Shown: one piece after another, positions 4,801-25,340 of the stretch
How the letters are laid out: every line of letters starts with the position of its first letter
How positions within the stretch are numbered: position 1 is the first letter of the stretch
Virus record (IMG/VR): IMGVR_UViG_3300040806_002074
Coordinates: 1 to 25,526 of that record
Direction: 5' to 3' (one strand)
DNA from: a virus
DNA: 25,526 nucleotides
The notes under the pieces: model-generated
What the model saw: only the letters and a program-made list of their open reading frames with translations
Told to the model about the DNA's origin: nothing
The model's database searches: none
Position numbers and translations under genes: made by a program

Positions 4801-5108
4801 CGACAAGTTCTACAATTGCCTCTGGCGAGCAGCACGTTTCCATAGACGCCAACCTCGTCCTTCAAAGAGACGGAGGCAGTGACGACTATGTAGGCGCAAG
4901 GTGTGTCCGCACAAACGACGGCGCGGTACTGCCGCAACTCTACTCCTCTTTGCGTGTACGCTCTGGCAAGAGCACTTATGGCCTGTTCTTTTTTGATGAG
5001 GACCCCATCGCTGGAGTGCTTAACACATACAAAATTCAACTAATAAACAACAATGACGACTCCCGAGTTTGGGAGACATCTTTGCGCGTGACACTTTACA
5101 GGAAGTAA
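1878..5108 (+). CDS. Long tail fibre / receptor-binding protein
   Basis: A 1076-aa protein starting at GTG 1878, overlapping the upstream stop, with GGAGG at 1866-1870 seven bases before it. Order: an N-terminal attachment region (1-60); a fibronectin type III-like domain (about 61-150, with PSAPTSLQAS and VLTWDY); a Ser/Thr/Gln coiled coil (about 160-210); roughly 480 residues of almost pure Ala/Ser/Thr/Asn/Glu heptad-like repeat (about 215-700) resembling the lambda side-tail-fibre repeat, including SETNAA and ATKATEAS; a DUF1983-like region as in phage J/fibre proteins (about 709-870, with GVSVEQNATVTA and repeated 'NAKI' turns); and a Tyr/Gly/Asp-rich beta domain (about 890-1076) likely to contact the receptor. 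It probably trimerises. The next gene encodes a matching chaperone. Confidence 0.85.
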   Translation: MSLPRTPVKGDAETRRFLEAIRQELVRTSGQMVTIADMRKNGFFESNGIPLDFDDPTIATPSAPTSLQASGAFRSIVLTWDYVDYVGHSHTRIYRSTTSAFADAEVLANVDGRVYSDDVGSNKSYYYWASNVNLNNIESATSQASGVNGTTLADTQFLLTALNSSIGNSQLNTQLSTRITTIETTQDSLETQIDDLETAFGNSQSSADNLAAAQAAAEAAIAAKNEAIGARDTAVQAKVDAVAAEDGAELAKDSAQTSATNAATSSGSASSSATNAATSASQAASSAQSAATSATAANTARTSAESANASAQTASSAAATSETNAATYATNAQTAATSANTSKVAAESAKDEAQTAALGASTSASTATSAATDAASAATAAQSAQTSAEAANTAAQTSASSAATSATSALGYADTAESAATTATSASLVATAAKNDAESAETNAANSATAAASSATSASASASSAATSASAAETSKLSAETAQSAAESAETGAEAAETAAVSAKNAAEVASISAVSAQNSAEAAEANAATSATTAANSATSATNSANAAAGSATTAATKATEASNSASAANTSRVAADSSRDAAAGSASAAATSASTAATQSSNASDSAAAAESSSVTATAAKNDAETAATNASGSATSASNSASAASTSASNAAASATAAGTSASSASSSAASASTNAASALSYRDQAAQSATDAEGFALASAQDYSVINARLNNFNNTGVSVEQNATVTASTVSGLTGQYTVKIDNNGYVSGFGLASTANDSTPTSEFIVRADSFSIGNPSGSGVPDATPFIVRTTPTTINGVSVPVGIYMSDAVIQNGSITNAKIGNASIDDAKIANLSAAKITTGSLDAARITVDNVSLDTYYDPALGRNRLYIRDLGVTNAKIDDLTIGTEKIQDLAITRSSSFFYNFSGFVYPTRNTWYDVSTVFNGYVFVGAGEGDYDYFQFGFYYVGENQGSYDYVSTTYTLQSGITTSSTIASGEQHVSIDANLVLQRDGGSDDYVGARCVRTNDGAVLPQLYSSLRVRSGKSTYGLFFFDEDPIAGVLNTYKIQLINNNDDSRVWETSLRVTLYRK

Positions 5109-12100: not shown

Positions 12101-15100
12101 AGAACCGGTCAAGGCGATACCCGTTACTCCGGTCGAGTCGAGCGCGCCGGTCGCCGCACTGTAAGGGCAAGCGAGGTGGTGGCGCGCACCCAGCCTCCGC
12201 GTGACACCGAAACTGCTGAGGCAGACGACGCTGCTCCGGACATCGATTATCAAGCCGTCATAGACGACCGCCTAAGCAAGATCGAAGCGCGTGGTGCGCA
12301 GGGCAAGATTATTGCTAAGCGCCTTCGTGGTCTCCTCAAGGATAAGGTGCTGACGGCTCCGCAGCTGTACGCTGCGTTCCGTGGCGGCGAGGTTGCGTCA
12401 AAGATTCTGCCTAAGAACTCCAAGGTAGACATCCTCTGGGTCCCCGTCCTGACTGCCGACAATGCTCAAGCAGCGCAGAACAGCGGTACGCAGGTTGGCG
12501 AAGAGGCGGCTGGCTCCTATCAGGCCTACGACATCAGCCAGAACGGTTTCCGTGGGATCATTAAACTGTCGCTTAGCGATAACGTTTCCTCGCTCGCTGA
12601 AGAGAATGCCGCGCACGAAGCCTTCCACGTTATTCAGGACATGCTGCGTGTATACGACCCGAAGGCATTCGAGCAGCTGAATACCGCATTCCGTGACGGC
12701 ATGCGTATCGATGACCTCGACGCCAGCATCCTGCGCAAGCTGAAGACCATCACCGTTGACGATAACCAGAGCGTGTACGACTCGCTCAAGGGATCGTTTG
12801 GCGACACGCCGCTCAGCAAGTACGAAGCGCAGGCCGTGGCATTCGGCGCGCTGGTCGATGCTAAGAACCGTGGCGTAGACATGAAGGGCCTAAAGGCCAG
12901 CTTCATTCGCGTTGTCGATTTCGCCAGCGACCTGTTCAGGGAGATTGGCCGACTGCTTCGCCGCGATGGCGTCACCAACCCCGCCACGATCTTTGAAGGC
13001 TACCGCGCAGGGACAGAACAAGAGTTCCTCAACGAATTCGGGGCACCTTGGGCGGATGGCGGTGGCGCGGTTCAGTACTCTGCAAGGACTAAGCCAGACC
13101 CGATCCGCACTCAAAAGGCCTACAAGCTTTTCCGTGTGAAAGAGGGTTCTCAGGGTCAACTGTTCCCGCTCTTTGTTAAGGCTAATGAACCGGTTGCTAT
13201 TGGGCAGTGGTTGGACGCTGATATCGGTGAGTCTGCTGGTGAGACAAAAACAGGCAGGCCGCAAGTTAAGTCTAAGATTGGTCCGCTCGCTCTTCGTGCC
13301 GGTTGGCATGCTGGCGACCTTCCCATAGCAACTCACATTGGTTCTAATCCATCCAGCCGTCGTGATCCGGAAACTGGAAAGACTAAGAAGCTTCCTACTG
13401 TTCGACCTGCTGATCAGGTATGGGCTGAGGTAGAACTTGCCGCTGACCGCGACTGGCAAGATGAAGCTAACAAGCGCGCTAAGCGCAATGCTCGCGGGGA
13501 GATTGTTGTCTCTACTGCACAGATCACAGACGAAATCCCCGAGGATGGTTTTTACCGGTACAAGACCAACCCCAACATGACCGGCAATTGGCTGATCAGT
13601 GGCTCAATGAAGGTCAACCGCATCCTCTCTGATGAGGAGGTGGCCCAGATTAATGATGCCGCCGGTGTGTCTGACCTTCCTCGTGAAGCGCCGTTTGACG
13701 CTGCTAAGTATGGTCTGAATGATGGTGTTCAGTACTCTGGCCGCAGAAGCAAGCCTCCGTATGATCATCCGTCAATCGGTTCTCAGGTCATAGCGCCCCC
13801 TATTACAGCTACGTCTACGATCCCGTTCCTGTACAACAACGGCAAGACGAAGACTGAGCAAACGCCAGAGGAGAGGCTTGCTCTGAAGGACGCTGTCCAA
13901 TTTATTCAGGAGCGGTCGAGGGCAGCTCTGCAGGCGCGCTTCGGCGTTGATCGGATCACTAAACCGGACCCCAAGACTGATCGTTATCTGATGCGCGCAA
14001 TCGCGTCAGAGGCAGAGGCGGCAATCCTTAAGGAACGCGCCACTGGCAACCGCTCGGCTCTCGATTGGTATACGAAGGCTATCGAGGACGCCATCGATGA
14101 GGCGTCGGCGATTTACCCGATGCTTGCCGACGACGACATTGCGGTCCGTCTGAGCAACCGCCTTGGGGTTGCCACCAAGGAAGACGCCCGCGTGATGTTC
14201 ACTACGGCTCTGGCAATCACGTCGCAGAACATGAAGGTTCGCGACAACGCACGCGCCACCACAGAGCAGTTTGACATATTCCTTGAGACGGGCCGCTTCG
14301 ATCCGACGAAGAAGTACGGCACCAAGGCCCCTTCGATCAGCAACAATCTGGCGCTCGCCAACTTCATGCTTGAGCGTGTCTTTGATGGCCGCGTCGCGGA
14401 GCTTGGTCAGTTCCTCAACACCGAATTTACGGTGGCAGAACTTAACAAGCTTGGCCGTGCTCTGCAGAACAAAGAGGGGCTTGAGAAGTCGCCGTTCAAT
14501 ATCAGCGGCGAGATGGCGTCCGAGAAAGTGTACGGCTCCGCAATCTTTGGCCCGAAGATCGGCAACGGTTTCTATCAGAACCTGAACCGCAACTTCTCCC
14601 CCGTCACCATCGATCTTTGGTTCATGCGACTTTGGGGCCGACTCACCGGCACGCTCGTGGGTAAGGACACGGCACTTAACAAGCAGATCGAAGCACTCCG
14701 TGAAGCGGTGGAGGCCGATGCGCACCCCACCACAAAGGTGCCGGACGGTTTTGCTGAGCGGTTTAATGGGGCGACGGACGGCGAGGTTATCGGTCTCGGC
14801 ATCGAGCTGGCTGCTGAATGGGAGCGTCAGTATAAGGCTCTGCAAAAGCAGGGCATGACGTCTGACCAGATCACGCAGCAGGGGCTGAAGCCGGAGTGGG
14901 CATTTAAGGCTGTCGCCCTTGCTGGTCAGAAGAAGCCTAACGATGCACCGGCCTCGGGCTCTCAAAGAAAATGGATTCGGGATGTCGTCAACGGCGCAGT
15001 GAAAATGCTGGCGAAGAACGGATACGACGTTACCCCTGCCGACTTGCAAGCCCTTGTATGGTATCCTGAAAAGGACCTCGTCAACCTTCTCAAGGAAGGA

Positions 15101-18100
15101 AAGCTTGAGGTTAACCTCAATGTGTCGTATGACACAGCCTTCTCTGAGCTAGCAGCAATAAGGAATGCCGATGCCACGTCAACCAACACCGATGCAGGAA
15201 ACCGAGGAGGCGACGGCGCTTCACGACAGGGAGATGGTGGGCGCAGTGCCGGACAAGCCGCTGTCGCCGGAGACGAAGCTTTGGCTGCGGGAGCAGCTCA
15301 AGAAGAAGGGGATCAAGTTCGCCGAACCCTTCCAGCCGACGTCAGAAACCGCCTCATCGAGCGAGGTGCCCGATACTCGGGTCGAACAGAACGACGAGAC
15401 CGAGGAGCAGGCAATCGAGGCGGAGAAGTTGCGCCGCTTGAGGGTGCGCCAAAGGTTCGCGGCGGAGGTCCAAACGCCGACCTCGTCCAAGTCGCGGAAG
15501 ACTATGCCTTAGAAAACGGCATTCCGCTTACTCGGCAGGCTGAATACGTAACAATCGACGAGGACTTCTCTCGTAGGCTGGCTCAGGCCTACGAAGAGAT
15601 GCAGGATACGCCTAACGACCCAGTGGTCCGTGAGGCGTATCGTGATCTGATCCGGCAAACCCGAGCTCAGTACGACGCTCTTGAGCGCGCTGGCTACCGG
15701 TTCACGCTTTTCGATGACGACAGCGATCCCTACGGGACAAACCCGTGGGAGGCGATGCGCGATCTTCGTAACAACAAGAGGATGGCGGTTTACTCCACCG
15801 TGGCCGGATATGGCAACGAGGGAGCTCAGTTTGACGTAAGCAGGAACCCCCTACTGGAAGACACGGGGCTTCGCTGGCCGGACCAGAATGGCAACCCCCG
15901 TCCGGTCCTCGCTAACGACTTGTTCCGAGCGGTTCATGATGCATTCGGACATGGTCTTGAGGGCGCTGGCTTCCGAGCGCGTGGTGAAGAAAACGCATGG
16001 CAGGCGCACGCACGCCTATTCACTGGACCGGCGCTTGGCGCACTGACCAGCGAGACTCGCGGCCAAAATAGCTGGTTAAACTTTGGTCCATACGGCGACA
16101 GGAATAAGAGCGCCGGTCTGTTCGACACCGTCTTTGCGGAACAGAAAGTCGGGTTGATGCCGGAATGGACATGGACTGAGCGAGTTGCAGTTGAGCGCTA
16201 CTCCGGTCGCGTTGGCGGCAGCATGGCAAACCGCCTTGCTGCAAAGGCACCGCCGCGTCCCAATGCACCCAAGTTCAGGGACGGGCCGTCGCTCCTTGGC
16301 GCGGACACCCGCAGCGCAAGGCGTGCATTTTTGGAAAACCAGTACGAGAGGTTCGTAAACCGAGCGCTGCCGATCAAGCAGCTCGTCAAGGAAATCGGTG
16401 ACGAGTTTAACGACAGCACAAACTTCGCTCGGGCTGAGGTGCTCATGGGCAGCGTTGTCGCAACGCAAACCCGTGACTTCAGAAACGAGGAGATCATTCC
16501 CCTTCTCCGAGAAATCTCTGCTCGTGGTCTCACGGTGGAGGAGGTTGAAACCTACCTCCACAACAAGCACGCGGAGGAGCGGAACACGGTTATTGCTGGT
16601 CGTAATGAGCTGTTCCCCGACGGCGGATCAGGCATCGCGACAGAAGACGCACGCCGATACCTCGCCTCTCTGTCTGATGCGAAGCGCAAGGGACTTGAGG
16701 CGGTGGAGAAAAAGGTCCGCGCCATAACCGACGGGACTCTGCAGCTGATGGTTGACTCAGGCGTTGAGTCTCCGGCTGCCGTGGCCGCGCTGCGAGATCA
16801 GTACAAGAATTGGGTTCCCTTGTTCCGTGAAGGGTTCGATGGAGGCAACCCTATCGGTGGCCGCCAGAGAGGCTCCAGCGTCGAGGGATCGTCTCTTAGG
16901 GCGGCTATTGGCTCAGAGCGGGCCGTCAAGAACATCATCTATAACATCGCCTCCCAGCGAGAGTCGGCGATTAACCGAGCGGAAAACAACCGCTTGAGCG
17001 GAACGGTCCTGCGTGCGGCTCTGGAAAACCCAGACCCCGCATTCTGGATGGTGATTGACCCCTCCAAGGTAACCCTCGAAGAAATTCGAGATCAGCTTGT
17101 TCGCATGGGTGTCGATCCGGAGATTGCCGAGGAGATTTACAAAGCCCCGCGTAAGGCGGCCTACAACAAAGAGACGGGCATGGTTGAGTCGGTTGTGGAC
17201 AACCAGTTCAAGCGCGCCCCGAATGTTGTCGCAACTCGCGTTGAAGGCACAGACAAGTTCATCGTTTTTAACCCGAACAACGAGCTTGCGACTCGCGTCG
17301 CACAAGCCATTCGCAATGACGACATGCCTGTCCTTGATGGGCTGAGCGGGAAGCTGGTTGAGTTTATTGGTCCACTCACGCGTATCTGGAGTCAGATGCG
17401 GACGCAGTACAGCCCTGAGTTTGGTCCGGTCAACTTTGTCCGCGATGTTGAGAACGCGCTGATCAACCTTGATGACACGCCCCTAAGCGGAAAGCAGGGG
17501 GCTGTGTTCGTCAAGGCTATGAAGTACGGCAACGTATTCAGAGTGCGGAACAGCAATCTAATCCGCGTCATCAGTGCCGCAGACAGTGGGCGGGCGGTAA
17601 GCCCCAAGGACCAAAAGCTTGCTGATCTTTTCGGTCGCTTTGAAAAGGCGGGCGGGCGAACCAGTATACGGAACACCTTCTTCCAATCCGACGATCCGAA
17701 AAAGATCGAAGCCCAGATGCAGAAGGTCTTCAAGCAGATCGCTGCGGGAAGGAAGTCGATCCCTGCCGAAGTGGCATCTGCCGTCACGGTTTGGAACGAC
17801 ACTCTAGAAATCGCAACGCGCTTGGCGATCTTTGAGACCGCCATTGAGGGCGGCATGACTGACGCGCAGGCGGCTGAACTCGCAAAGACGACAACCGTCA
17901 ACTTCCAACAGAGGGGGCAGTGGACGCGTGAGCTTAACGCGGGCTACGGCTTCTTCAACGCCAGTATCGCGGGGAACTCGCGAAACATTCAGGTCATGCT
18001 GAGCAAGGGCGGAAAGAAGATAGCACTCTGGGGAGTCGGCCTTGGCGTGATGCAAGGCATCATGCTGGCGATGGCTGGCTATGAGGAGGACGAGCCGCCG

Positions 18101-19006
18101 GAGTGGGTCAAGGACAACGCATTTATTATCCCGATTCCCTTCACGGACAAGTACCTTCCGATCCCGATGCTTCACTTCTACCGTGCGTTCCCCGCTATTG
18201 GGCGGCGCATGGTGGAGACGGCTCGGGGCCAGCTCACGGTCGGGGAGTTCCTTACGGGCTCGGTCAGGGCGGTTGTCAACGCGGTCAATCCATTGGCTTA
18301 CGGCGCAAGCTTTATTGAGTTTGCCGCACCGTCAGTCCTAGATATGGGTGTGCAGTACTGGCAGAACCTAGACGGCCTTGGTCGGCGCATCTACAACGAG
18401 GACTTCAACGACCTTAACCCCACAACCGGCATGAACCGCGCTCGCGGCGATATGACCATGATGTACGCGATGTACTCGAAGATTGCCGAGGGCATCAACG
18501 CCATTAGCGGTGGGGATGAATTCACTCGCGGTGAGTTCTCGCCGACGCCTGAGGAGATTAAGTTCTTTGTCGAAGAAACCGCGCCGCCAATCCGGTTTGT
18601 TTATCGGTCCTTCGGCGTGGCAGAAAAGCTCTTTGCGGGCGATGACGTTGAGGCAATTGAGCTGCCGTTCCTCCGCCGTTTCTACGGCCAGCGGTCGGGC
18701 AAGACAGCCGAGGGCGGCAAGTTCTACGAGAACGTGCTGGAGCTGAACAAGCTGAGGACGACCATACGGGGGCGCGATGAAGCAGGGGTCGATACGTCAG
18801 ACATCTACGAGCAGAACCCGATAGCCGAACTAACCGACAGCGTGGGGTCGTACTACCGCGAAGTCTCTGACCTAAGGCGTGAGCGCCGCCGGTTGATACT
18901 GGAGGGCAAGGACAGGGCCGAGATCAGGGCGCGGGACGAAGAGATCACCGCTAAGATGAAGGAATTCAACGATCTCGTGGCCGAATACAGAGAGGCCGAA
19001 GAGTAA
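9119..19006 (+). CDS. Giant modular polyvalent protein (3295 aa) with metallopeptidase and LPD38-type regions
   Basis: One uninterrupted frame of 9888 bases. Residues 1-1002 form a leader with coiled coil, an Ala/Gly-rich membrane-active stretch (about 215-405) and a Pro-rich linker (about 785-845). Five copies of [QR]YS[GA]R (Tyr at 1003, 1320, 1539, 2086, 2361) then delimit modules: a zincin-like peptidase with HEAFH at 1166-1170; a KLFRVK...YKTNPNMTG module; a long helical module with VTIDLWFMR and TPADLQALVW; a module with VHDAFGHGLEGAGF; and a C-terminal LPD38-like region. Known polyvalent proteins of phages and conjugative elements combine such domains and are thought to enter the cell with the DNA. 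The ribosome site is weak (AGG before ATG 9119). Lack of any frameshift over 9.9 kb argues for strong selection. Confidence 0.85.
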   Translation: MTDYLRNVNFSLVYNPPEKLRADEGPQGPSGQQAAQQPRGPIQSTEDPAINSLQRRAAEIDQRIARREQQLKDSALARGLSWLSDISAPDWLGDEGGDSIINILRARKEGILTDIEDIRRSRQQIVDQGGYGEGGFGAAVERGLGNAQSMYGALGAMVGDVESDDISSIIEGRSRTLRAGRGREEQEAYERFQAADGLWASAKELFTNPREMINIAIESLPSSVPSIAGSVVAGGATGIATRNPVAAQRAAAVGGGLGSFVTEYGNAMLETLANNGVDLGSPEALEQAIRDPKIMEEARDRGVKRGIAVGVFDAMSIGLAGKLGGGKVASKIIGDTASAGTARRVAGYTAGGLVETGAQGAFGAAGEAAGQLVTEGEITSPQDIVAEFAGEIPTGVIESAVGSAIQTRRDQNTRPQEDTELAGALSAFTAQRGGQTETLALPDGISQELRDLGDLRVGDLSYTGQQLYSFAENNMSNPRIADIMSQPVSAGTKVQQVARVMNEAEAARVEPEAVRRIAEAVGGTTSVSKTKEIANSVLSQIGDHIIDASPTLSAIRAQVSSDKKGKGFVTALRSVVNSYSPPARSGGTMIARPERGGDGSVIMTPDQVADEARREREAQQAFRMADRRQERFDRATGTTRQQEDLRAGAPEPEAQFFLGENYGDLAGTPVEIVQATSPDTVRLQYESPTETDSSGRPVTISEEVSVLDVGGRVVRGTNRMSQDLESNLRNPQRGVGTDMSPRRSVDRTRTRAVSTREEAGLPAIQTNLVNEGYRQRPPTDIGSQNAQENPAQENIPLPQGVQSTPDQAQQLPAPPQDPPAPPRQLPAPNLTEREQGTPEAQDREAISQRARAARDRANALEENGTLSFGEWFALRRKITANIEEAERELDSLENPINYDNDPRMVEAMDRFDAAIDRVNETENTTEARKLAKALIKEGVIDEEAYIEIDEAIKDETERDFKHDAAMSAIQDAIEQQRDNVAADIEEEIYSEADQRTGQGDTRYSGRVERAGRRTVRASEVVARTQPPRDTETAEADDAAPDIDYQAVIDDRLSKIEARGAQGKIIAKRLRGLLKDKVLTAPQLYAAFRGGEVASKILPKNSKVDILWVPVLTADNAQAAQNSGTQVGEEAAGSYQAYDISQNGFRGIIKLSLSDNVSSLAEENAAHEAFHVIQDMLRVYDPKAFEQLNTAFRDGMRIDDLDASILRKLKTITVDDNQSVYDSLKGSFGDTPLSKYEAQAVAFGALVDAKNRGVDMKGLKASFIRVVDFASDLFREIGRLLRRDGVTNPATIFEGYRAGTEQEFLNEFGAPWADGGGAVQYSARTKPDPIRTQKAYKLFRVKEGSQGQLFPLFVKANEPVAIGQWLDADIGESAGETKTGRPQVKSKIGPLALRAGWHAGDLPIATHIGSNPSSRRDPETGKTKKLPTVRPADQVWAEVELAADRDWQDEANKRAKRNARGEIVVSTAQITDEIPEDGFYRYKTNPNMTGNWLISGSMKVNRILSDEEVAQINDAAGVSDLPREAPFDAAKYGLNDGVQYSGRRSKPPYDHPSIGSQVIAPPITATSTIPFLYNNGKTKTEQTPEERLALKDAVQFIQERSRAALQARFGVDRITKPDPKTDRYLMRAIASEAEAAILKERATGNRSALDWYTKAIEDAIDEASAIYPMLADDDIAVRLSNRLGVATKEDARVMFTTALAITSQNMKVRDNARATTEQFDIFLETGRFDPTKKYGTKAPSISNNLALANFMLERVFDGRVAELGQFLNTEFTVAELNKLGRALQNKEGLEKSPFNISGEMASEKVYGSAIFGPKIGNGFYQNLNRNFSPVTIDLWFMRLWGRLTGTLVGKDTALNKQIEALREAVEADAHPTTKVPDGFAERFNGATDGEVIGLGIELAAEWERQYKALQKQGMTSDQITQQGLKPEWAFKAVALAGQKKPNDAPASGSQRKWIRDVVNGAVKMLAKNGYDVTPADLQALVWYPEKDLVNLLKEGKLEVNLNVSYDTAFSELAAIRNADATSTNTDAGNRGGDGASRQGDGGRSAGQAAVAGDEALAAGAAQEEGDQVRRTLPADVRNRLIERGARYSGRTERRDRGAGNRGGEVAPLEGAPKVRGGGPNADLVQVAEDYALENGIPLTRQAEYVTIDEDFSRRLAQAYEEMQDTPNDPVVREAYRDLIRQTRAQYDALERAGYRFTLFDDDSDPYGTNPWEAMRDLRNNKRMAVYSTVAGYGNEGAQFDVSRNPLLEDTGLRWPDQNGNPRPVLANDLFRAVHDAFGHGLEGAGFRARGEENAWQAHARLFTGPALGALTSETRGQNSWLNFGPYGDRNKSAGLFDTVFAEQKVGLMPEWTWTERVAVERYSGRVGGSMANRLAAKAPPRPNAPKFRDGPSLLGADTRSARRAFLENQYERFVNRALPIKQLVKEIGDEFNDSTNFARAEVLMGSVVATQTRDFRNEEIIPLLREISARGLTVEEVETYLHNKHAEERNTVIAGRNELFPDGGSGIATEDARRYLASLSDAKRKGLEAVEKKVRAITDGTLQLMVDSGVESPAAVAALRDQYKNWVPLFREGFDGGNPIGGRQRGSSVEGSSLRAAIGSERAVKNIIYNIASQRESAINRAENNRLSGTVLRAALENPDPAFWMVIDPSKVTLEEIRDQLVRMGVDPEIAEEIYKAPRKAAYNKETGMVESVVDNQFKRAPNVVATRVEGTDKFIVFNPNNELATRVAQAIRNDDMPVLDGLSGKLVEFIGPLTRIWSQMRTQYSPEFGPVNFVRDVENALINLDDTPLSGKQGAVFVKAMKYGNVFRVRNSNLIRVISAADSGRAVSPKDQKLADLFGRFEKAGGRTSIRNTFFQSDDPKKIEAQMQKVFKQIAAGRKSIPAEVASAVTVWNDTLEIATRLAIFETAIEGGMTDAQAAELAKTTTVNFQQRGQWTRELNAGYGFFNASIAGNSRNIQVMLSKGGKKIALWGVGLGVMQGIMLAMAGYEEDEPPEWVKDNAFIIPIPFTDKYLPIPMLHFYRAFPAIGRRMVETARGQLTVGEFLTGSVRAVVNAVNPLAYGASFIEFAAPSVLDMGVQYWQNLDGLGRRIYNEDFNDLNPTTGMNRARGDMTMMYAMYSKIAEGINAISGGDEFTRGEFSPTPEEIKFFVEETAPPIRFVYRSFGVAEKLFAGDDVEAIELPFLRRFYGQRSGKTAEGGKFYENVLELNKLRTTIRGRDEAGVDTSDIYEQNPIAELTDSVGSYYREVSDLRRERRRLILEGKDRAEIRARDEEITAKMKEFNDLVAEYREAEE
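12137..13075 (+). other. Module 2 of the giant protein: zincin-like metallopeptidase (MPTase-PolyVal type)
   Basis: Residues 1007-1319. The sequence AAHEAFHVIQDM supplies HExxH (His1166, Glu1167, His1170), the zinc-binding and catalytic motif of zincins. A downstream EAQAVAFG (Glu1236) is a good third ligand in the ExxAxxF arrangement. A short strand rich in hydrophobic residues (GFRGIIKLSLSD) lies just before the active-site helix, as in other zincins. Established knowledge: metallopeptidase domains of this kind recur in phage polyvalent proteins. Substrate unknown; self-processing or host protein cleavage are both possible. Confidence 0.7.
13088..13732 (+). other. Module 3 of the giant protein: KLFRVK / YKTNPNMTG module
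   Basis: Residues 1324-1538, between the second and third YS[GA]R motifs. It has a compact alpha/beta pattern: YKLFRVK (1335-1341), QLFPLFVKANEPV, LRAGWHAGDLPIATHIG, VWAEVELA, then YRYKTNPNMTG (1479-1489), NWLISGSMKV and RILSDEEV. I recognise the pattern as a conserved module of uncharacterised large phage proteins but cannot name it. The conserved Arg, His and Thr/Asn residues look like an active site, possibly an ADP-ribosyltransferase-like fold; that is speculation. Confidence 0.45.
13745..15373 (+). other. Module 4 of the giant protein: large helical module
   Basis: Residues 1543-2085. Mostly helical. The most distinctive stretch is NGFYQNLNRNFSPVTIDLWFMR (within 1816-1837), followed about 135 residues later by YDVTPADLQALVWYPEK. 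The 'fixed Gly-Asn, then T-D-W..R' and 'T..LQA..W' signals recall helix-hairpin-helix glycosylase-like phage proteins (DUF7178 type), but the match is weak. The last 70 residues are a low-complexity Gly/Arg/Asp linker that is also open in a second frame. Confidence 0.35.
15171..15512 (+). CDS. Candidate overprinted small gene nested in the giant gene
   Basis: A 113-aa frame offset from the giant gene. ATG 15171 is preceded by AAGGA (15160-15164) with six bases of spacing; the frame is closed upstream by a stop near 15143 and ends at TAG 15510-15512. The product is charged and protein-like (SPETKLWLREQLKKKGIKFAE near residues 33-53, then an acidic run and EAEKLRRLRVRQRF). Its codons mostly end in G or C, whereas the giant frame in the same stretch uses about ten CGA codons and many GGA. 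The giant frame nevertheless keeps a YSGR motif here, so both frames may be used. No homologue is recognised; a pair of compensating indels is the alternative. Confidence 0.35.
   Translation: MPRQPTPMQETEEATALHDREMVGAVPDKPLSPETKLWLREQLKKKGIKFAEPFQPTSETASSSEVPDTRVEQNDETEEQAIEAEKLRRLRVRQRFAAEVQTPTSSKSRKTMP
15386..16198 (+). other. Module 5 of the giant protein: VHDAFGH putative metal-dependent module
   Basis: Residues 2090-2360. Core segments: LFRAVHDAFGHGLEGAGF (2268-2285), GEENAWQAHARLF (2289-2301) and SETRGQNSWLNFGP (2311-2324), then KVGLMPEWTW. The regularly placed His2273, Asp2274, His2278, Glu2290/2291 and His2297 look like a metal centre. I have the impression that this block is conserved in many large phage proteins, but I know of no assigned activity. 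Confidence 0.45.
16211..19003 (+). other. Module 6 of the giant protein: LPD38-type C-terminal region
   Basis: Residues 2365-3295. The first 560 residues are helical and include FIGPLTRIWSQMRTQYSPEF and NFVRDVENALINL. From about 2928 the pattern NFQQRGQWTRELNAGYGFFN, a hydrophobic stretch (about 2965-2987), FIIPIPFTDKYLPIPM and NPL..GAS.IEF...SVLD matches large polyvalent-protein-associated domain 38, usually found at the end of such proteins. The final 45 residues are charged coiled coil (RRERRRLILEGKD). Confidence 0.6.
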
Positions 19007-19085: not shown

Positions 19086-19910
19086 TCAAATCGAACCAAT
19101 GTTGTCGGCTACCTTGCGAAGGTGCTCAGTCGACAGGTGTGCGTATCTTTGAACCATACGGTCGTCAGACCAGCCCCCCATCTCTCGGACGGCAGCAGTG
19201 TGAGTTCCTCTTTGAATGTGCCAAGACGCCCAAGTGTGACGGAGATCATGCCACCGGAAGTTCTCTATGCCAGCCCGCTTCAGGGCATTTCTAAAGGCGC
19301 GCGTGTTGCTCCTACAAACCGGCTTTCCACCATAAGCAAACACCCAATCGGCGTGCCTGTTCTTCGCCCTCTGTCGCTTTAAAAGAACCTCATAGGCTGT
19401 GTCGTTCAGGGGAACAGACAAAGGCTTCCCGTTTTTCATCTTGTCCCCAGAGATCGTTACCATCCTGTTGGGGAGGTCGACCTCGTCCCACCTCAACTCT
19501 CTGACGTTTGCGTCCCTAAGTCCTGTGCTGAGGGCAAATACAACCTTGTCCTTGAGGTGGCTTGGAAGTTCTTTCAATAAGCGGCGAGCTTCATCCTTGT
19601 CTATGAAGCGAACCCTCGGCTGCTCCTCCATCCGCCTGATCTTTGGGGCGGTGGAAATCCACTCCCAATCATCTCGCGCCATGTTCAGGATACACCTGAG
19701 CACTGTCAGGTAGCGGTTGACGGTAGCCGGAACGCGCGTCGCGAGCATGTCATCCCTGATCTCGGAGACCACGCCCTTTGTGATTTTGTCTAACGGCTTT
19801 TCGTTTAGGTATTCGGTAAGAAGTGCGACGTATCTACGCTCCTCCTTTACCCACCTTCCGGTTCTTCCCGCGAGCCATCTGTCGGCTGCGTCGTTCCAAG
19901 TCTTCTCCAT
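19086..19910 (-). CDS. int: Tyrosine site-specific recombinase (phage integrase)
   Basis: A 274-aa protein when started at ATG 19910, which has AGGAGG a few bases upstream on the - strand; an upstream in-frame ATG at 19958 would overlap the preceding gene. An N-terminal SAM-like core-binding domain (about 1-90) is followed by the catalytic domain: Arg132 in STGLRDANVRELRW, Lys157 in ISGDK, His221 and Arg224 in HDLRHTWASW, Trp247 in GGW and the nucleophile Tyr256 in RYAHL. All the expected catalytic residues are present, so it should be active. It lacks the long N-terminal arm-binding domain of lambda Int, being short like other compact phage integrases. It integrates or excises the phage DNA at att sites, which I could not locate. 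Confidence 0.92.
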   Translation of the reverse strand: MEKTWNDAADRWLAGRTGRWVKEERRYVALLTEYLNEKPLDKITKGVVSEIRDDMLATRVPATVNRYLTVLRCILNMARDDWEWISTAPKIRRMEEQPRVRFIDKDEARRLLKELPSHLKDKVVFALSTGLRDANVRELRWDEVDLPNRMVTISGDKMKNGKPLSVPLNDTAYEVLLKRQRAKNRHADWVFAYGGKPVCRSNTRAFRNALKRAGIENFRWHDLRHTWASWHIQRGTHTAAVREMGGWSDDRMVQRYAHLSTEHLRKVADNIGSI

Positions 19911-19932
19911 TTTAGCCTCCTTGCTATCTAGT

Positions 19933-20283
19933 TTAACCTGTCCTGCGGATCGCGTCATCTCTTACAAGCCGGTAAGACATTGGCGCATCAAAGCCTAGGC
20001 GAAGCACCGGCTCCAAAGGACCGCCCTTAAATGAGTCGGTGTACATGCCAACAAGAACGATGCGTAGATCAGGGTTGACTCGAAAGTCATCCTTGATTGG
20101 CGTCAGCTCAAAGCTTTCGTACTTACCAACTGCGCTGCGCACAGAGATTTCTGCCGAGCGACTCTTCGGCTCATAGACAATGTTCTCTACCCGAATGATG
20201 TGATCGTAGGTGTCTTCGATGTCTTCAGTGAGTTCAGACCCCCCGTAGACCGAGCCGCCCTTTCTGCGCGTCATCACAAGCAT
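19933..20283 (-). CDS. Hypothetical protein upstream of integrase
   Basis: A 116-aa protein when started at ATG 20283; ATG 20274 is an alternative, and a TTG at 20370 would overlap the neighbouring small gene almost fully. The core is beta-rich (IIRVENIVYEPKSRSAEISV, YESFELTPIKDDF, LRIVLVGMYTDS), suggesting a small beta-barrel, and it ends in Arg-rich residues. No family recognised. Its stop is 22 bases before the integrase start and its 5' end overlaps the 56-aa membrane gene by about 50 bases, so the three are probably co-transcribed. It could be an excision or integration accessory factor by position only. Confidence 0.55.
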   Translation of the reverse strand: MLVMTRRKGGSVYGGSELTEDIEDTYDHIIRVENIVYEPKSRSAEISVRSAVGKYESFELTPIKDDFRVNPDLRIVLVGMYTDSFKGGPLEPVLRLGFDAPMSYRLVRDDAIRRTG

Positions 20284-20404
20284 TATAAAATACACTCCAC
20301 CACTTAATGAACTGCTTTGTAATCCAAAGAAAAGTCGCAGCGATGTACCAGCCGTAGTACAGATCACCAAGATAAATCAACAGACACGCAATCAATAAAG
20401 TCAT
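20234..20404 (-). CDS. Small membrane protein (56 aa)
   Basis: ATG 20404 on the - strand is preceded by GGAGG with five bases of spacing, one of the best ribosome sites in the window. The product starts MTLLIACLLIYLGDLYYGWY and continues with IAATFLWITKQFIKWW, giving one or two membrane-spanning segments in the first 40 residues, then a charged tail (DDAQKGRLGLRGV). The stop lies inside the next gene in another frame. It might be a superinfection-exclusion or other small membrane factor, but nothing in the sequence fixes this. It starts immediately after a strong terminator, so its expression needs read-through or its own promoter. Confidence 0.55.
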   Translation of the reverse strand: MTLLIACLLIYLGDLYYGWYIAATFLWITKQFIKWWSVFYNACDDAQKGRLGLRGV

Positions 20405-20415
20405 GGTACCTCCAC

Positions 20416-20440
20416 AAAAAAAGGGGGGTCGCCCCCCCTT
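20416..20440 (-). terminator. Rho-independent terminator between the SSB-like gene and the integrase cluster
   Basis: G6 (20423-20428) pairs with C6-7 (20432-20438) around a three-base loop; flanking AA/TT can extend the stem. On the - strand the hairpin is followed by seven T (A-tract 20416-20422). It lies ten bases past the stop of the SSB-like gene and just before the ribosome site of the 56-aa gene, separating the recombination genes from the integrase genes. Confidence 0.85.
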
Positions 20441-20449
20441 AGTTCTTTA

Positions 20450-20755
20450 TTAGAATGGAATGTCGTCGTCCAAGTCCGCCTTCTGAGGTTGGCTGTAGTT
20501 ATTGGACTGGGCTTGAGCCTCTGGATTTACTTTCTTAGTCCAAGACCGACCAGCAAAAAACTTGCCACTCTTTCCTTCGACGATACGAGCTTCAATGTTT
20601 AGCTCTTTACCGTCTTCGAGAACAAAACGGCCACTATAGGTCGGAACAGATTCCTCGTTCCAGCCCTTGTCGCGATAAAACTGCTTGCGCTCGGCGACTC
20701 GATCATCCTTGTCCTTGAACAGAACAAACGTATTTGGTTTTTGTTCGTAAGCCAT
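20450..20755 (-). CDS. SSB-like single-stranded-DNA-binding protein with acidic tail
   Basis: A 101-aa protein starting at ATG 20755, with AGAGGA seven bases upstream. It is short for an SSB but ends in a Gln/Asn-rich linker and DLDDDIPF, the acidic tip by which bacterial and phage SSBs recruit partner proteins. The middle (TYSGRFVLEDGKELNIEARI, then EGKSGKFFAGRSW) has the strand pattern of a small OB-like fold or DUF736-type protein, and the N-terminus NTFVLFKDKDDR is compatible. It sits in one leftward unit with an annealing protein and an exonuclease, so a role in protecting recombination or replication intermediates is likely. Confidence 0.65.
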   Translation of the reverse strand: MAYEQKPNTFVLFKDKDDRVAERKQFYRDKGWNEESVPTYSGRFVLEDGKELNIEARIVEGKSGKFFAGRSWTKKVNPEAQAQSNNYSQPQKADLDDDIPF

Positions 20756-20767
20756 TTGTATTCCTCT

Positions 20768-20941
20768 TTACTTTCTGCGGTTCTTCTCAAGGTGAGAAAG
20801 GTACAGGTTGACTGCTTGACGAATTACGCTCGCAATAGAGCGGTCTTCAGCAATCGACCAATTCAAAAGTTCTTTGTAGGTTGATTCATCGACTGTCGTC
20901 TGGACCAACCGGCTGGTTTCATCTCTCCGTATTCTTGCCAT
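20768..20941 (-). CDS. Ribbon-helix-helix (Arc/CopG-like) regulator
   Basis: A 57-aa protein. ATG 20941 lies three bases past the exonuclease stop, with GAGGA ending six bases upstream. Residues 11-20 (RLVQTTVDES) form the expected beta-strand, and 21-33 and 37-51 (TYKELLNWSIAED, SIASVIRQAVNLYLS) the two helices of a ribbon-helix-helix dimer, preceded by a basic arm MARIRRDE. Such proteins bind short inverted or direct repeats as dimers or tetramers and repress. No toxin partner is seen next to it, so a phage transcription regulator is more likely than an antitoxin. The dyad at 22548-22567 is a possible target. Confidence 0.72.
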   Translation of the reverse strand: MARIRRDETSRLVQTTVDESTYKELLNWSIAEDRSIASVIRQAVNLYLSHLEKNRRK

Positions 20942-20943
20942 GT

Positions 20944-21846
20944 TCATTCCTCAACTGAAGTTACTGCGTAAGTGATTACGCCAGTCTTCCGATAATCATC
21001 CATCGAACGACCTAGTTTGGAAAGCAATTCATCAGCGCCGATGTCTTTGTAAACGGCGGCGTGATCAACAGCGCCCCTCTTTTCTATCTTGGTTACCTTG
21101 ATGCGACCCGTGCGGAACGAACCATGTTGTTCTCCAAGCTCTTTTTTTAGCGCGTCAAACTCTTCTTTGAGCGGCTTGATGCTAGACTCGATTTGCTTAA
21201 TCTCTAGAAACAAGTCCGACATGCGCTCTGACCGCATATCGCTAACATGCTTTTCTTCGCTTTCAAGGTGCGTGCTAGCCATCGCTTCATCAGCGATAGT
21301 GGCGGTGTATTTTTTATGAAACTTCTCAAGCTTGGGTAGAGCTGACGCAAACCAGTCAGGATCGCGTGGAAGCCTCTCCAGCAAGTAGAGGTCGTCGTTA
21401 ATGTAGCAAAGGAAGTCCATCCAATCTATACCACACACCTCCATGACGTGCTGGCACTGGGCATAGTAGCTAGGCTTTTCATGTACAGAGTACGGCGTCT
21501 TGGCCCAGTATGGACACTTGATCTCCAAGCCCCCATCAATACCAATCAGTCCGTCAGGGCTAGCCCCAAGCCACGAGTACTTGTCGTGCTTGACCAGACC
21601 TGTCTCTTCGACCGTGTTGCCGCTCTTGCTTTCATAAAAGGCAAGGGCGACGGGCTCCATCTGCGTTCCGTGATTTGTGGCGGCGTTACCTTTAAACTCC
21701 TTCTCGGCACCAAAGTGCTCACGAACCATGTCCCTCATCACGTCGTCGGCTGATTGGTAGGGGTTGACGCCAAGGATGGCACCAACACGGCTTCCTGTAA
21801 TGACGCCAACGCGTGCCTTGAACCATTCTTCAGACCTCTGTTCCAT
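20944..21846 (-). CDS. YqaJ-family 5'-3' exonuclease (lambda-Exo-like viral recombinase)
   Basis: A 300-aa protein with the YqaJ/PD-(D/E)XK signature: RSEEWFKARVGVITGSR (4-20), a Glu at 64 in GTQMEPVALAFYE, LGASPDGLIG with Asp98, GGLEIKCP with Glu108 and Lys110, then YYAQCQHVMEVCG (128-139). These residues form the metal-dependent nuclease centre that degrades one strand of duplex ends. Residues about 200-240 are a coiled coil (LFLEIKQIESSIKPLKEEFD). The start overlaps the stop of the upstream annealing-protein gene (TAATG), the standard exonuclease-annealase pair of phage single-strand-annealing recombination. Confidence 0.9.
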   Translation of the reverse strand: MEQRSEEWFKARVGVITGSRVGAILGVNPYQSADDVMRDMVREHFGAEKEFKGNAATNHGTQMEPVALAFYESKSGNTVEETGLVKHDKYSWLGASPDGLIGIDGGLEIKCPYWAKTPYSVHEKPSYYAQCQHVMEVCGIDWMDFLCYINDDLYLLERLPRDPDWFASALPKLEKFHKKYTATIADEAMASTHLESEEKHVSDMRSERMSDLFLEIKQIESSIKPLKEEFDALKKELGEQHGSFRTGRIKVTKIEKRGAVDHAAVYKDIGADELLSKLGRSMDDYRKTGVITYAVTSVEE

Positions 21847-22457
21847 TACTTGGCCAACTCTTTCTTCCGCATGTCTTTGGCTGCAGAAATCTGCGCAACA
21901 AGAGCGGAGTCGTTGCGGTTCTTTGCGTAGCGCGTGGCTTTAGTAAAGGCAGACTTAAGTGTGTCTAGGTCCTTTGCGCCGGCGATTGTTGCCAGCAGCT
22001 TTTCTAAAGCGTCGTTGCCTTGCTGTACCGGCTTTTTCTCCGGCGCAGCAGCAGTCTGGGGTAGGTCTTCGCCCGCATATATATAGTGACCAAGGCCAAA
22101 AAGTGCCATCGCCTTAACCAAACAGCGCATTTTTGCGTCATTAACGGCGCGCGCGTCGGGGTTCTTAATGGCGTTGTTGCGGTGATCCATCACCGGCAGC
22201 CACATCTTCCTTGAATAACCGCCCACGGTGAGGACGCAGCGAACCTCAGCCGACCCGTCAGGAAAGCTGAAGCACTCATTGCCATTCTCAAAGTGATCGA
22301 AAGAAAACTTACTGTCAGGAAAGTTTTGCATCAGGGTGCCCCACGCCCACGCCCAAGAAAGGTATGTAAAGCCGTTCTTGCGCTCAACGTTGTCATTCAC
22401 GTTGACCGACGAAAGGGTGTTCCAGATGTCTTGCAGGGAGTGTTTAGTGTCGTCCAT
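21846..22457 (-). CDS. DUF1071-type single-strand annealing protein (Sak3-like)
   Basis: A 203-aa protein. ATG 22457 has GGAG eight bases upstream; a longer TTG start at 22511 lacks a site. The signature of the DUF1071/Sak3 group of Rad52-like phage annealases is visible: LSWAWAWGTLMQNFPDS (33-49), then KMWLPVMDHRNNAIKNP (84-100) and MRCLVKAMALFGLGHYIYAG (110-129) ending in EDLPQ. The remaining 70 residues form a Lys/Ala-rich tail, often used for partner binding. It pairs complementary strands exposed by the YqaJ exonuclease encoded downstream and would work with the SSB-like protein in the same transcript. Confidence 0.82.
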   Translation of the reverse strand: MDDTKHSLQDIWNTLSSVNVNDNVERKNGFTYLSWAWAWGTLMQNFPDSKFSFDHFENGNECFSFPDGSAEVRCVLTVGGYSRKMWLPVMDHRNNAIKNPDARAVNDAKMRCLVKAMALFGLGHYIYAGEDLPQTAAAPEKKPVQQGNDALEKLLATIAGAKDLDTLKSAFTKATRYAKNRNDSALVAQISAAKDMRKKELAK

Positions 22458-22675
22458 ATTGTCTTCTCCAATTTGACCACCCCCAAGTAGCAGTCCATTT
22501 TCTTTATTCAACCCTGTTGTGAAAAAAATATCAACGTTTGTTTTACCTGTGATGTTTCTGCATCACACATAAGCCAAGATCGAAAAATGTGTTTCGTGTG
22601 CGATAAGGGGCTTGCGATTTTTGTAGCCAGCATTATGTGCGGTGAAGGACGGCTAGCTCGACGGAGCGAAAAGCC
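22458..22675. promoter_or_regulatory. Divergent control region between leftward recombination and rightward replication genes
   Basis: This is the largest gap in the window apart from short spacers. It is AT-rich between about 22500 and 22625. It contains the operator-like dyad 22548-22567, and an AT-rich imperfect dyad at about 22517-22536 (GTTG ... CAAC around an A-run). I could not place a confident -35/-10 pair in either direction, so promoter positions are left open. Confidence 0.5.
22548..22567. promoter_or_regulatory. Operator-like perfect inverted repeat
   Basis: Arms TGTGATG (22548-22554) and CATCACA (22561-22567) are exact inverted complements separated by six bases, a typical size for a dimeric repressor site. 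It lies between the divergent transcription units, where a single regulator could control both. The local ribbon-helix-helix protein is one candidate binder. Confidence 0.55.
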
Positions 22676-22735: not shown

Positions 22736-22789
22736 CTAAAGAGAAGTGGAGCATATATGAAATTGAAAAAATGGAGACCCACGCAATGA
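22676..22789 (+). CDS. Candidate short leader ORF (37 aa) coupled to the replication gene
   Basis: ATG 22676 is preceded by GGAG (22663-22666) with nine bases of spacing. The product begins MFALAWFLLSRVACRLFGR, a hydrophobic helix, and ends in a basic tail (MKLKKWRPTQ). A second in-frame ATG at 22757 also has GGAG five bases upstream, so the tail alone could be made. The TGA stop overlaps ATG 22786 of the replication gene as ATGA, the usual layout for translational coupling. It may be a coupling leader, a tiny membrane peptide, or chance; it is too short to decide by composition. Confidence 0.38.
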   Translation: MFALAWFLLSRVACRLFGRTLKRSGAYMKLKKWRPTQ

Positions 22790-23517
22790 GCGGGTGGATT
22801 CGCTTGCATCGTGGGTGGCGCGACTGTGGCGCGTTTAGCTGCGAGCCTGCATCAGAACGAGAGGCTTGGGTTCACTTACTAGAGACGGCTGCTTGGAAGC
22901 CAATGATCCGCAGATGCGGCAAGGGTGATGTCGTTGAGGTTGCCCGAGGTCAACTGCATACTGCAGAAAGAACTCTTGCCAGAATGTGGCAGTGGGACAG
23001 GAAGCGCGTGAAGCGTTTTCTAAAACGCCTCGAAAAATATTCCATGATCTCGCAAAAAACGGGACCATCCGGAAACCTGATAACGATCTGTAATTACGAC
23101 GAATATCAGACCGAGGGGACCATCGATGGGACCATCAATGGGACCATTCAAGGACCATCCGAGGACCATCCGAGGACCACACAAGAAGAAAGGAAAGAAA
23201 GAAAAGAAGGGAAAGAAGAAAAGAATACTAGTTTTTATGAGTTCGAAGGGGCCGTCATTCGACTTAGTTCGAAACACTTCAGCGAGTGGAAGAAGGTGTA
23301 CAGCGCAATCCCCGATCTCAGGTCGGAGCTTTATTCACTCGATGCGTGGTGGCAAGGACAGCCTGACGCACGGAAGAAAAACTGGTTCAACGCATCGAAG
23401 GGAATGCTTAACGCAAAGCAGCAAGAGATCAGGAAGCAGGAGCGTGCAAGAAGCTCGTCCTTGTCTCGACTTGCTGCTGAGGCAAAACAGTACGCTGGCG
23501 ATGGAGGCCATGAATGA
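22786..23517 (+). CDS. Phage replication initiator (lambda-O-like, winged-helix N-terminus)
   Basis: A 243-aa protein starting at ATG 22786, with GGAG nine bases upstream; ATG 22771 is in frame but lacks a site. Residues 1-105 form a winged-helix region (WIRLHRGWRD..., VARGQLHTAERTLARMWQWD, KRVKRFLKRLEKYSMI, then NLITICNYDEYQ) typical of phage replisome-organiser proteins. Residues 110-148 are a polar linker encoded by DNA repeats and a purine tract. Residues 150-243 are a helical region with W-rich LYSLDAWWQGQPDARKKNWF, likely to contact the helicase. The following primase-helicase gene overlaps by ATGA, as expected for an initiator-helicase pair. Confidence 0.72.
   Translation: MSGWIRLHRGWRDCGAFSCEPASEREAWVHLLETAAWKPMIRRCGKGDVVEVARGQLHTAERTLARMWQWDRKRVKRFLKRLEKYSMISQKTGPSGNLITICNYDEYQTEGTIDGTINGTIQGPSEDHPRTTQEERKERKEGKEEKNTSFYEFEGAVIRLSSKHFSEWKKVYSAIPDLRSELYSLDAWWQGQPDARKKNWFNASKGMLNAKQQEIRKQERARSSSLSRLAAEAKQYAGDGGHE
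23116..23184 (+). repeat. Iteron-like tandem repeat inside the replication gene (candidate origin)
   Basis: Six consecutive units with core GGACCAT: starts at 23116, 23128, 23140 (12-bp units GGGACCATC-AT type) and 23152, 23163, 23174 (11-bp units GGACCATCCGA type, the last degenerate). A seventh isolated copy, GGGACCATCC, is at 23061-23070. The units encode the linker of the initiator. The arrangement resembles lambda ori, where iterons lie inside gene O. Confidence 0.6.
23183..23225 (+). repeat. Pure purine tract next to the iterons (possible unwinding element)
   Basis: Forty-three consecutive A/G bases with no pyrimidine, A-rich, directly after the iteron array and followed by an AT-rich stretch to about 23240. 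It encodes a Lys/Glu-rich linker. Easily melted or triplex-prone DNA beside iterons is what an origin needs; it may instead only reflect selection for a charged linker. Confidence 0.5.
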
Positions 23518-25340
23518 ACGTGTCGGATATATCAGCGCGTCTTAACGACTCGCTCCTCGCTACCTTAAGACACCTCTTACCCGCTGGGGTAATACAGGGA
23601 TCGGAGTACTGTGTAGGCGGAATAGGCGGCGAGAAGGGGCAATCCCTTCGCATCCACATGTCGGGTAATAAGGCTGGCGTCTGGAGTGACTTCGCCAGCG
23701 GAGAGAGCGGCGGAGACCTGCTCGATCTTTGGGCCGCCGTTCGCGGACTGCAGCTTGTCGATGCAATCGACGAGGCTCGCGGCTGGCTTGGTGTAGAGCG
23801 CCCCAAGTTCGTAGCCCCGACAAAAGAATACAAAGCACCCATCAAGCCGGAAGGGTTGCGCAGGCTAGATGCGACTCCGGTTGAGCGTTACTTGTCCGAT
23901 GAGCGTGGGATCAGCGCAGACACAGCAAAAGCCTTTCGCATTGCTGCGGATGGCGACCGTGTCTTGTTCCCCTTCATAGACCCGCAGGGTGAAACTCGGA
24001 TGATCAAGTTCCGCGATATCAACGACAAGAAAAAGCAGGGCCCGACGTCGGCTGGGCAAATGCCGATCTTGTTTGGATGGCAGGCGGTTGACGCTAACGC
24101 CCGAGAGGTATGGATAGTCGAGGGCGAGTTCGACGCAATGGCGGCCCACCAGATGGGCGTGTCGGCATTGTCGGTACCCTTCGGGGGAGGCAAGGGCGCA
24201 AAACAACAGTGGATCGAGAACGAGTACGACAACCTCGACCGTTTCGAAACCATCGTGCTGGCAATGGATATGGACGACGAGGGAGAGCTGGCCGCTCGCG
24301 AGATCGCAGAGCGCCTCGGCCTGCACCGGTGTGTTAGGGTAACGCTGCCAAAGAAAGACCTAAACGACTGTCTCCTTGAGGGAGATGACGTCGCAGCAAT
24401 TAGAGGGACGGGGAAGGGATACGACCCCGATGAATTGAAATGTGCCACCGAATACCGAGAAGACATCTTGAAGGAGCTCTTCAACAGCGAAGAGGACACA
24501 AGAGGATTTGCTCCGCTTTTGAGGGGCTTCGACCGGAAGTTCCGATTCAGGGATGCAGAACTGATAATCTTGAACGGGATCAACGGGCACGGCAAAAGCC
24601 AGTTGGCGGGGCAGTTTAGCCTCGACGCAATGGCTCAGTCCAAGCGCGTTTGCATAGCCTCTATGGAAATGCCGGCCCGCCGCCTTCTTACTAGGCTCAC
24701 GAAGCAGGCTGGAGGTGTTGAAGAGGGTAGCCAGACTGAAAGCTTCGCGAACACAATCATCGATTGGTACGCAGAAAAGCTGTGGCTCTTCGACCTTGTC
24801 GGTACAGCCAAGACAAAACGAATGCTCGAGGTGTTTCAGTACGCGCGTCGCCGATATGGGATCGAGGTTTTCATCATCGACAACATGTCGAAGTGCGGCA
24901 TCGGTGACGACGACTACACCGGACAGAAGGCTTTTATGGAAGAGCTTTGCGACTTCAAAAACACGACTGCGACTACCGTGTTCCTTGTCACACACTCACG
25001 CAAAGGCGAGAATGAAGACAGTCCAACGGGCAAGATGGACGTTAAGGGCAGTGGGTCTATCACCGACCTTGCAGACTCTGTTCTCACGATATGGAGAAAC
25101 AAGCGCAAAGAAAAGAAGATTGCCGACCTTAAGTTCGAGGGCGAGGAGGTGCCGGAAGAGATTGAGTTCGAGCCCGACTCCGTTATTTTTTGTAGCAAGC
25201 AGCGCAATGGGGAGTGGGAAGGAACCGTCGGAACATACTGGTCTGCAGGCGCAATGCAGTTTAAGAACGCGCCCAAAGAGCAGGCCCGCCAGTACGTCGC
25301 CTACACAAAACCGCAGGTAAAAGAGGAGAGTTATATATGA
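23514..25340 (+). CDS. Primase-helicase (TOPRIM plus SF4 DnaB/Twinkle-like helicase)
   Basis: A 608-aa protein; ATG 23514 overlaps the initiator stop. The N-terminal region (about 20-92) keeps the W.DF.SGESGGDLLDLW pattern of a primase zinc-finger domain but has only one Cys, so the zinc site seems lost. The TOPRIM domain spans about 198-290: VEGEFDAMA (Glu203/Glu205) and AMDMDDEGE (Asp252, Asp254). The helicase has Walker A GINGHGKS (355-362), Walker B FIIDN (Asp456), LVTHSRKGE with sensor His494, and SKQRNGE with putative arginine finger Arg564. This is the T7 gp4/Twinkle arrangement: it unwinds the fork as a hexamer and may prime the lagging strand. Whether it primes without zinc ligands is uncertain. 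Confidence 0.9.
   Translation: MNVSDISARLNDSLLATLRHLLPAGVIQGSEYCVGGIGGEKGQSLRIHMSGNKAGVWSDFASGESGGDLLDLWAAVRGLQLVDAIDEARGWLGVERPKFVAPTKEYKAPIKPEGLRRLDATPVERYLSDERGISADTAKAFRIAADGDRVLFPFIDPQGETRMIKFRDINDKKKQGPTSAGQMPILFGWQAVDANAREVWIVEGEFDAMAAHQMGVSALSVPFGGGKGAKQQWIENEYDNLDRFETIVLAMDMDDEGELAAREIAERLGLHRCVRVTLPKKDLNDCLLEGDDVAAIRGTGKGYDPDELKCATEYREDILKELFNSEEDTRGFAPLLRGFDRKFRFRDAELIILNGINGHGKSQLAGQFSLDAMAQSKRVCIASMEMPARRLLTRLTKQAGGVEEGSQTESFANTIIDWYAEKLWLFDLVGTAKTKRMLEVFQYARRRYGIEVFIIDNMSKCGIGDDDYTGQKAFMEELCDFKNTTATTVFLVTHSRKGENEDSPTGKMDVKGSGSITDLADSVLTIWRNKRKEKKIADLKFEGEEVPEEIEFEPDSVIFCSKQRNGEWEGTVGTYWSAGAMQFKNAPKEQARQYVAYTKPQVKEESYI

Follow-up and report, generated by a model that had tools for sequence, protein, structure and literature searches.

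In-gene origins of replication are already known from phages lambda and SPP1 and from RepA_N plasmids. The stretch of viral DNA analysed here (the window; 25,526 nucleotides, positions 1 to 25,526 of IMG/VR record IMGVR_UViG_3300040806_002074) raises the question of whether it holds another, as direct repeats and a purine tract lie inside its apparent initiator gene and an original prediction, made from the letters alone, had placed a lambda-ori-like origin there. Our reading, to which we give a probability of about 85%, is that the gene encodes an initiator of the G38P type and contains its own origin, the repeats of which are read by the N-terminal domain of the protein. The features concerned are collected in Table 1.

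Table 1. Coordinates of the initiator locus in the window.
Feature	Position	Strand	Basis
Initiator gene	22786..23517	+	phrog_2514, 6e-21 over residues 1-146; hhalign to SPP1 G38P
N-terminal winged helix-turn-helix DNA-binding domain (predicted), residues 1-108	22789..23112	+	AlphaFold2 model, fold matches
Recognition helix (predicted), residues 71-83	22999..23037	+	DSSP on AlphaFold2 model
Repeat 1, GGACCAT	23062..23068	+	Wing-coding DNA; conserved position -18
Constant block ATAACGATCTGTAATTACGACGAATATCAG, 30 bp, encodes ITICNYDEYQ	23080..23109	+	Codon choice in 81 genes
Repeat 2, GGACCAT	23117..23123	+	
Repeat 3, GGACCAT	23129..23135	+	
Repeat 4, GGACCAT	23141..23147	+	
Repeat 5, GGACCAT	23152..23158	+	
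Repeat 6, GGACCAT	23163..23169	+	
Repeat 7, GGACCA, then C (GGACCAC)	23174..23179	+	
A+T-rich tract, candidate unwinding element	23183..23237	+	Stability, third-position AT in relatives
Next gene, Toprim primase and DnaB-type helicase	23514..25340	+	PF13155, PF03796; phrog_239, 2.8e-118

The initiator gene, its repeats and its A+T-rich tract

Judged by sequence comparison, the product of the gene (243 amino acids counting the methionine at 22786; residues are numbered from the serine at 22789 as residue 1) is a DnaD-like winged-helix initiator, a replisome organizer of the SPP1 G38P type. In PHROGs, the N-terminal part is grouped with DnaD-like helicase loaders (phrog_2514, 6e-21), and the sole match of the C-terminal part is phrog_17247, a family of unknown function, so that the helicase contact given to this part in the original prediction is putative. 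Pfam assigned no family to the protein, HTH_Crp_2 and HVO_A0114 being the only entries at E≤1. The AlphaFold2 model shows a confident N-terminal block (pLDDT 92-97 across residues 21-100), a linker predicted to be disordered at residues 113-160, and C-terminal helices beyond it. Fold matches of the N-terminal domain in the PDB comprise winged helix-turn-helix domains of the CRP/CodY type and the RepA_N initiators 4pql, 4pt7 and 5kbj, with Z of 7-9. The initiator gene is overlapped by 4 bp by the primase-helicase gene, which is also the next gene in the relatives L004 and L093; several relatives have a different downstream neighbour. No signal for a folded leader RNA was obtained in the region before the initiator gene (z -0.42).

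Several other features of the record were observed around this locus. Between the initiator gene and the divergent Sak gene lies a perfect inverted repeat (22549-22566, GTGATG-tttctg-CATCAC), which looks like an operator. The minus-strand region 19086-22511 encodes an integrase, an SSB-like protein, a YqaJ/RecE-like exonuclease and the Sak annealing protein, pointing to a temperate phage that brings a recombination set of its own. One open frame of 3295 aa (9119-19006), in which a Large polyvalent protein domain (LPD38) was recognized, takes up more than a third of the record, and the tail-fibre-like protein encoded at 1878-5108 has a long stretch that is repetitive and rich in Ala/Ser.

The gene carries, within one 118-bp stretch, seven of the 13 GGACCA words present in the whole 25.5 kb, and the same arrays were recovered by Tandem Repeats Finder. 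The original prediction had described six GGACCAT copies and an isolated one, 11-12 bp apart and exactly in the linker. Copies and spacing stand (12, 12, 11, 11 and 11 bp within the main run, repeats 2-7), and most copies do fall in the disordered linker, but the seventh reads GGACCAC, and the first lies in DNA encoding the wing and is not isolated. This first copy is located 55 bp (5 x 11) before the next, at -18 from the ITICNYDEYQ codons, and is taken as a member of the array because of this distance and because its position is kept in relatives. The seven copies are found in all three codon frames (0, 1, 1, 1, 0, 2 and 1) and are read in order as GPS, GTI, GTI, GTI, GPS, EDH and RTT, so that a peptide repeat does not explain them. 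A peptide repeat as the cause of the array was likewise ruled out by synonymous resampling of the gene with the protein kept: the 20,000 recoded genes averaged 0.65 copies, and none had more than 4, let alone seven.

Following the array, the 43-base purine tract of the original prediction proved exact (23183-23225, the runner-up in the window being 16 nt long), and the thermodynamically least stable 50-mer of the whole window (23188-23237) overlaps it. Across 81 relatives, A or T occupies 71-73% of the third positions in the tract, where the synonymous usage of each locus would predict 40%; the letters themselves vary (60 of 197 third-position changes across 14 independent pairs). Composition is thus conserved and sequence is not, a pattern in the compared genes that fits selection for easy melting. 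GC skew, which had been suggested as a check, follows gene orientation and is uninformative as an origin marker. Initiators often repress their own genes, and binding within the gene could block transcription, so that the protein-bound array might be an autoregulatory, copy-control or partition-like site and not an origin. We regard this as unlikely: the array in the relatives is followed by an A+T-rich tract that appears to be selected for composition, as for an unwinding element, and two known systems considered below also argue for an origin.

Arrays and a constant block in relatives

Scans of viral contigs yielded a non-redundant set of 133 relatives that carry the motif [IV]TICNYDxY; a scan of genome contigs gave two relatives only. 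A significant in-gene array (a repeated hexamer around the motif compared with synonymous shuffles, p<0.01) was detected in 90 of the 133. The other 43 were negative in this exact-word test, which is weak in A+T-rich genes, many of the 43 among them; most of them are A+T-rich genes whose AACAA-type repeat occupies a different register, and some may truly be array-less. The A+T-rich relatives L230-L305 form a second group with NNACNAgCAA repeats at registers of about -20 and 47, in which recognition may be different.

The repeated words are specific to lineages and include GGACCA, GGGACA, GACGCA, GAGACA, GCGACA, CGGACA, GATACA, GGTACA, GGCACA and GAAACG, among others; eight GGGACA words are found in a named phage, Sulfitobacter phage pCB2047-A. 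Layout, on the other hand, is constant: ahead of the motif, copies lie at about -42, -30 and -18, and behind it they follow from 37 or 48 on. Neighbouring copies are 11 or 12 bp apart in 352 of 485 intervals (210 at 11 bp, 142 at 12 bp), the remaining intervals being mostly near 23, 44, 55 or 66 bp, and the -18 copy is separated from the first downstream copy mostly by 66 bp (6 x 11), else by 55-56 bp. A second origin array was looked for in a 45-kb relative, and one array only was found.

Conservation of the repeats extends beyond the amino-acid sequence, as the original prediction had proposed to check. Between the window and its closest relative, L003 (L002/L003, 92% protein identity), none of 41 third positions changed in the repeats, block and tract, compared with 48 of 203 elsewhere (Fisher p 6e-5). 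Over 14 independent gene pairs, third-position changes amounted to 3/146 in the repeat words and 350/1547 elsewhere (p 7e-12). The outcome named beforehand as contrary to an origin, a peptide linker kept while the DNA repeat is lost, is reversed: in the relatives it is the DNA array that persists and the peptide that is lost. These data also bear on the proposal that the array is a slippage-made tandem repeat without DNA function, tandem repeats being known to grow by slippage and a linker predicted to be disordered being able to tolerate them. Such a product is very improbable here, given that third positions are conserved in the repeat words and not in the rest, and that the copies flank the invariant ITICNYDEYQ codons at fixed distances of 55 or 66 bp.

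These invariant codons form a block that sits between the arrays, where the 11-bp lattice is without copies, and that holds the palindrome GTAATTAC. Since the loci were collected via this peptide motif, the way of sampling itself accounts for part of its conservation at the amino-acid level, but not for its codon choice, as the search patterns were degenerate. The third base of the first codon of ITICNYDxYQ is A in 99% of the 81 genes (60 ATA, 19 GTA), cysteine is encoded by TGT in 66/81 and asparagine by AAT in 69/81, and the two tyrosines, three codons apart, are TAC in 74/81 and TAT in 75/81, respectively. Opposite codons for the same amino acid at so short a distance are not codon bias and argue that the block is conserved as DNA too. 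Over the 14 independent pairs, third positions of the block changed in 17 of 140 cases (p 0.004). On this comparative evidence, the block is kept as DNA across relatives with different repeats, which suggests that constraint on the DNA helps to preserve ITICNYDEYQ, a peptide motif that is among the most conserved in these proteins. No known function was found for a 30-bp block with the palindrome GTAATTAC.

Covariation of the recognition helix and the repeat word

The variety of words was compared with the residues of the protein. For this comparison the word register was fixed from the DNA alone, and residues 85-98 were left out because their codons make up the upstream copies, which makes a high signal there circular. 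In 81 genes (effective number 69) and 82 columns, the strongest covariation with hexamer base 3 was that of residues 71 and 75 (z 7.3 and 7.5, respectively); the null here was simulated, under a simple substitution model, on a tree that left out the helix. Combined scores were 8.3 for residue 71, 5.7 for residue 72, 5.5 for residue 60, which belongs to the preceding helix, and 5.0 for residue 75, the remaining helix columns reaching at most 2.2. A repeat of the analysis (n=85, with ten further genes and clear-spacing arrays only) gave 6.9, 6.3, 4.5 and 4.9 for residues 71, 72, 60 and 75, respectively. In the aligned genes, the repeat word thus tracks residues 71, 72 and 75 beyond the tree-simulated null, and the origin of the array by slippage in a tolerant linker is already contradicted by this covariation.

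Individual correspondences could be recognized. E or D at residue 71 goes with GACGCA, and K71 next to S72 or N72, combined with an acidic residue (D or E) at 75, mostly with GGGACA; K-S at 71-72 with R at 75 is paired with GAAAC, K-D at 71-72 with GCGACA, and P at 71 with CGGACA. In the window protein, the helix residues that covary with the word by tree-controlled mutual information are R71, K72 and K75, and this R-K..K combination corresponds to GGACCA. When two genes less than 40% identical have the same residues at 71, 72 and 75, their hexamers are identical in 67% of cases (n=15), against 5.2% for the other such pairs, and in cross-prediction between genes less than 45% identical the triplet 71/72/75 outdid 3,000 of 3,000 random column triplets. 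For 36 held-out genes, a predictor based on the helix was correct in 31%, compared with 33% when the word was taken from the gene most similar in the remainder of the domain and 7% after shuffling; for the 13 with a good helix match, the figures were 69%, 54% and 14%, respectively. The helix codons themselves contain the repeat word of their gene in only 1 of 85 genes. No description of this helix-word relation was found in a literature search, which reached few subscription papers and is weak evidence of novelty.

One gene gives both a DNA-reading helix and its own apparent binding site. Sequence databases contain about a hundred of these pairs or more, differing in their words, as data on how a winged helix sets base preference and on how the specificity of initiators and origins changes without loss of replication. 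Opinion could fall evenly on either side of a broader proposal, namely that the initiator gene across the family is a self-contained, fast-diversifying specificity module in which helix and word change together, and in which the 30-bp block serves a separate origin function. If true, the three helix residues and the in-gene word would provide a natural winged-helix recognition code. In-gene arrays may also offer a route to the origins of uncultured phages from sequence.

Comparison with known in-gene origins

The closest parallel is found in SPP1. A profile of 19 family members was aligned with SPP1 G38P by hhalign with a probability of 99.2 (E 1.6e-19, 133 columns), the window protein and G38P both match phrog_2514, phrog_186 and phrog_35955, and a tblastn search of named phages with the relative L010 retrieved SPP1 gene 38 (5e-7). 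The SPP1 origin oriL lies within gene 38, where its direct repeats are bound by G38P and adjoin an AT-rich unwinding element (PMC6316719); the gene 38 sequence has GACA at -7, 62, 73, 84 and 95, followed by an AT-rich stretch. The two systems share a homologous N-terminal domain, the location of all origin parts within the initiator gene, direct repeats of about 11 bp after the same motif (NYEKWQ in SPP1) with one upstream copy, and an AT-rich tract after the array, in the window a sequence feature only. They differ in that SPP1 has words of the CGACA/AAGACA types with the helix SNTKVN, another C-terminal part, separate helicase and loader genes, and a second origin, oriR, for which the 45-kb relative of the window showed no counterpart. 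The fact that G38P binds direct repeats at the same place and that this place is oriL (PMC6316719) speaks against an autoregulatory, copy-control or partition-like site in place of an origin.

In Staphylococcus aureus phage 80alpha, deletion of ORF20, a G38P homologue, is not complemented in trans, which the authors took as a sign of an embedded origin (PMC5499656). This result is also at odds with such a non-origin role of the array and, as in the window, places an inferred origin within a G38P homologue. S. aureus phage PVL orf46 (DnaD-like) likewise has an in-gene AACATCAAA-type array after NYDFYQ. Unlike in the window, the words of 80alpha ORF20 and PVL orf46 are A+T-rich, and the partner in 80alpha is a DnaC-like loader instead of a primase-helicase. 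The replication protein of L313 (OP712483.1, Pseudomonas phage PSV3 NODE_5) is almost identical to PVL orf46, and for this reason the contig, labelled as a Pseudomonas syringae phage, may be contamination.

Plasmid initiators of the pSK41 RepA_N type follow a similar plan, with a winged-helix N-terminal domain, Rep boxes inside rep, a linker encoded by the ori and a separate C-terminal domain (PMC5703833). The layout predicted for the window resembles this plan. The number of Rep boxes in pSK41 is four, however, and a semi-palindromic form has been described for most iterons of the RepA_N group (PMC7145576). The RepA_N domain model (PF06970) had no match in the window protein, and the RepA_N fold matches to its N-terminal domain (4pql, Z 8.2; 4pt7, Z 8.1; 5kbj, Z 7.3) are equalled or exceeded by CRP chains.

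Based on SPP1 oriL, 80alpha ORF20 and the pSK41 plan, 23062-23237 is read as the origin of the phage and the N-terminal domain as its reader. The candidate origin of the original prediction gains support from the homology to G38P/oriL, from DNA-level conservation and from the covariation of helix and word. In the mechanism that we propose, the winged-helix domain would read the GGACCA repeats via residues 71, 72 and 75. With the copies on an 11-bp lattice, bound initiator molecules would all come to lie along the same side of the DNA, and the nucleoprotein assembly that they could build would strain and open the adjacent A+T-rich tract, where the C-terminal part and the primase-helicase would then be loaded. 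That the protein of this phage binds the array, that the tract opens, that loading follows and that replication starts here is inferred, as is any role of the constant 30-bp block.

The likeness to lambda ori put forward originally holds for the logic, repeats and an AT-rich region lying within the initiator gene in both cases, and phrog_345, a family named O-like, weakly matches SPP1 G38P, the relative L024 and lambda O. That the locus is a true lambda-O-type origin and its protein a member of the O family is nevertheless highly implausible. Direct profile comparison of lambda O with the family gave an hhalign probability of 0.2, on which homology to the lambda O N-terminal domain was rejected; the bridging phrog_2514 is matched by the C-terminal part of lambda O and by the N-terminal part of the window protein; and lambda O has been called unrelated to G38P (PMC5499656). 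Lambda carries four annotated iterons of 18 bp, about 20-24 bp apart, in agreement with the earlier remark that repeat sequence and size differ, and is thus an analogue and not a relative. The locus is best placed among the G38P-type in-gene origins. Three things are added to the known cases: the words vary across the family, they correspond to three residues of the helix, and a constant block is kept between the arrays.
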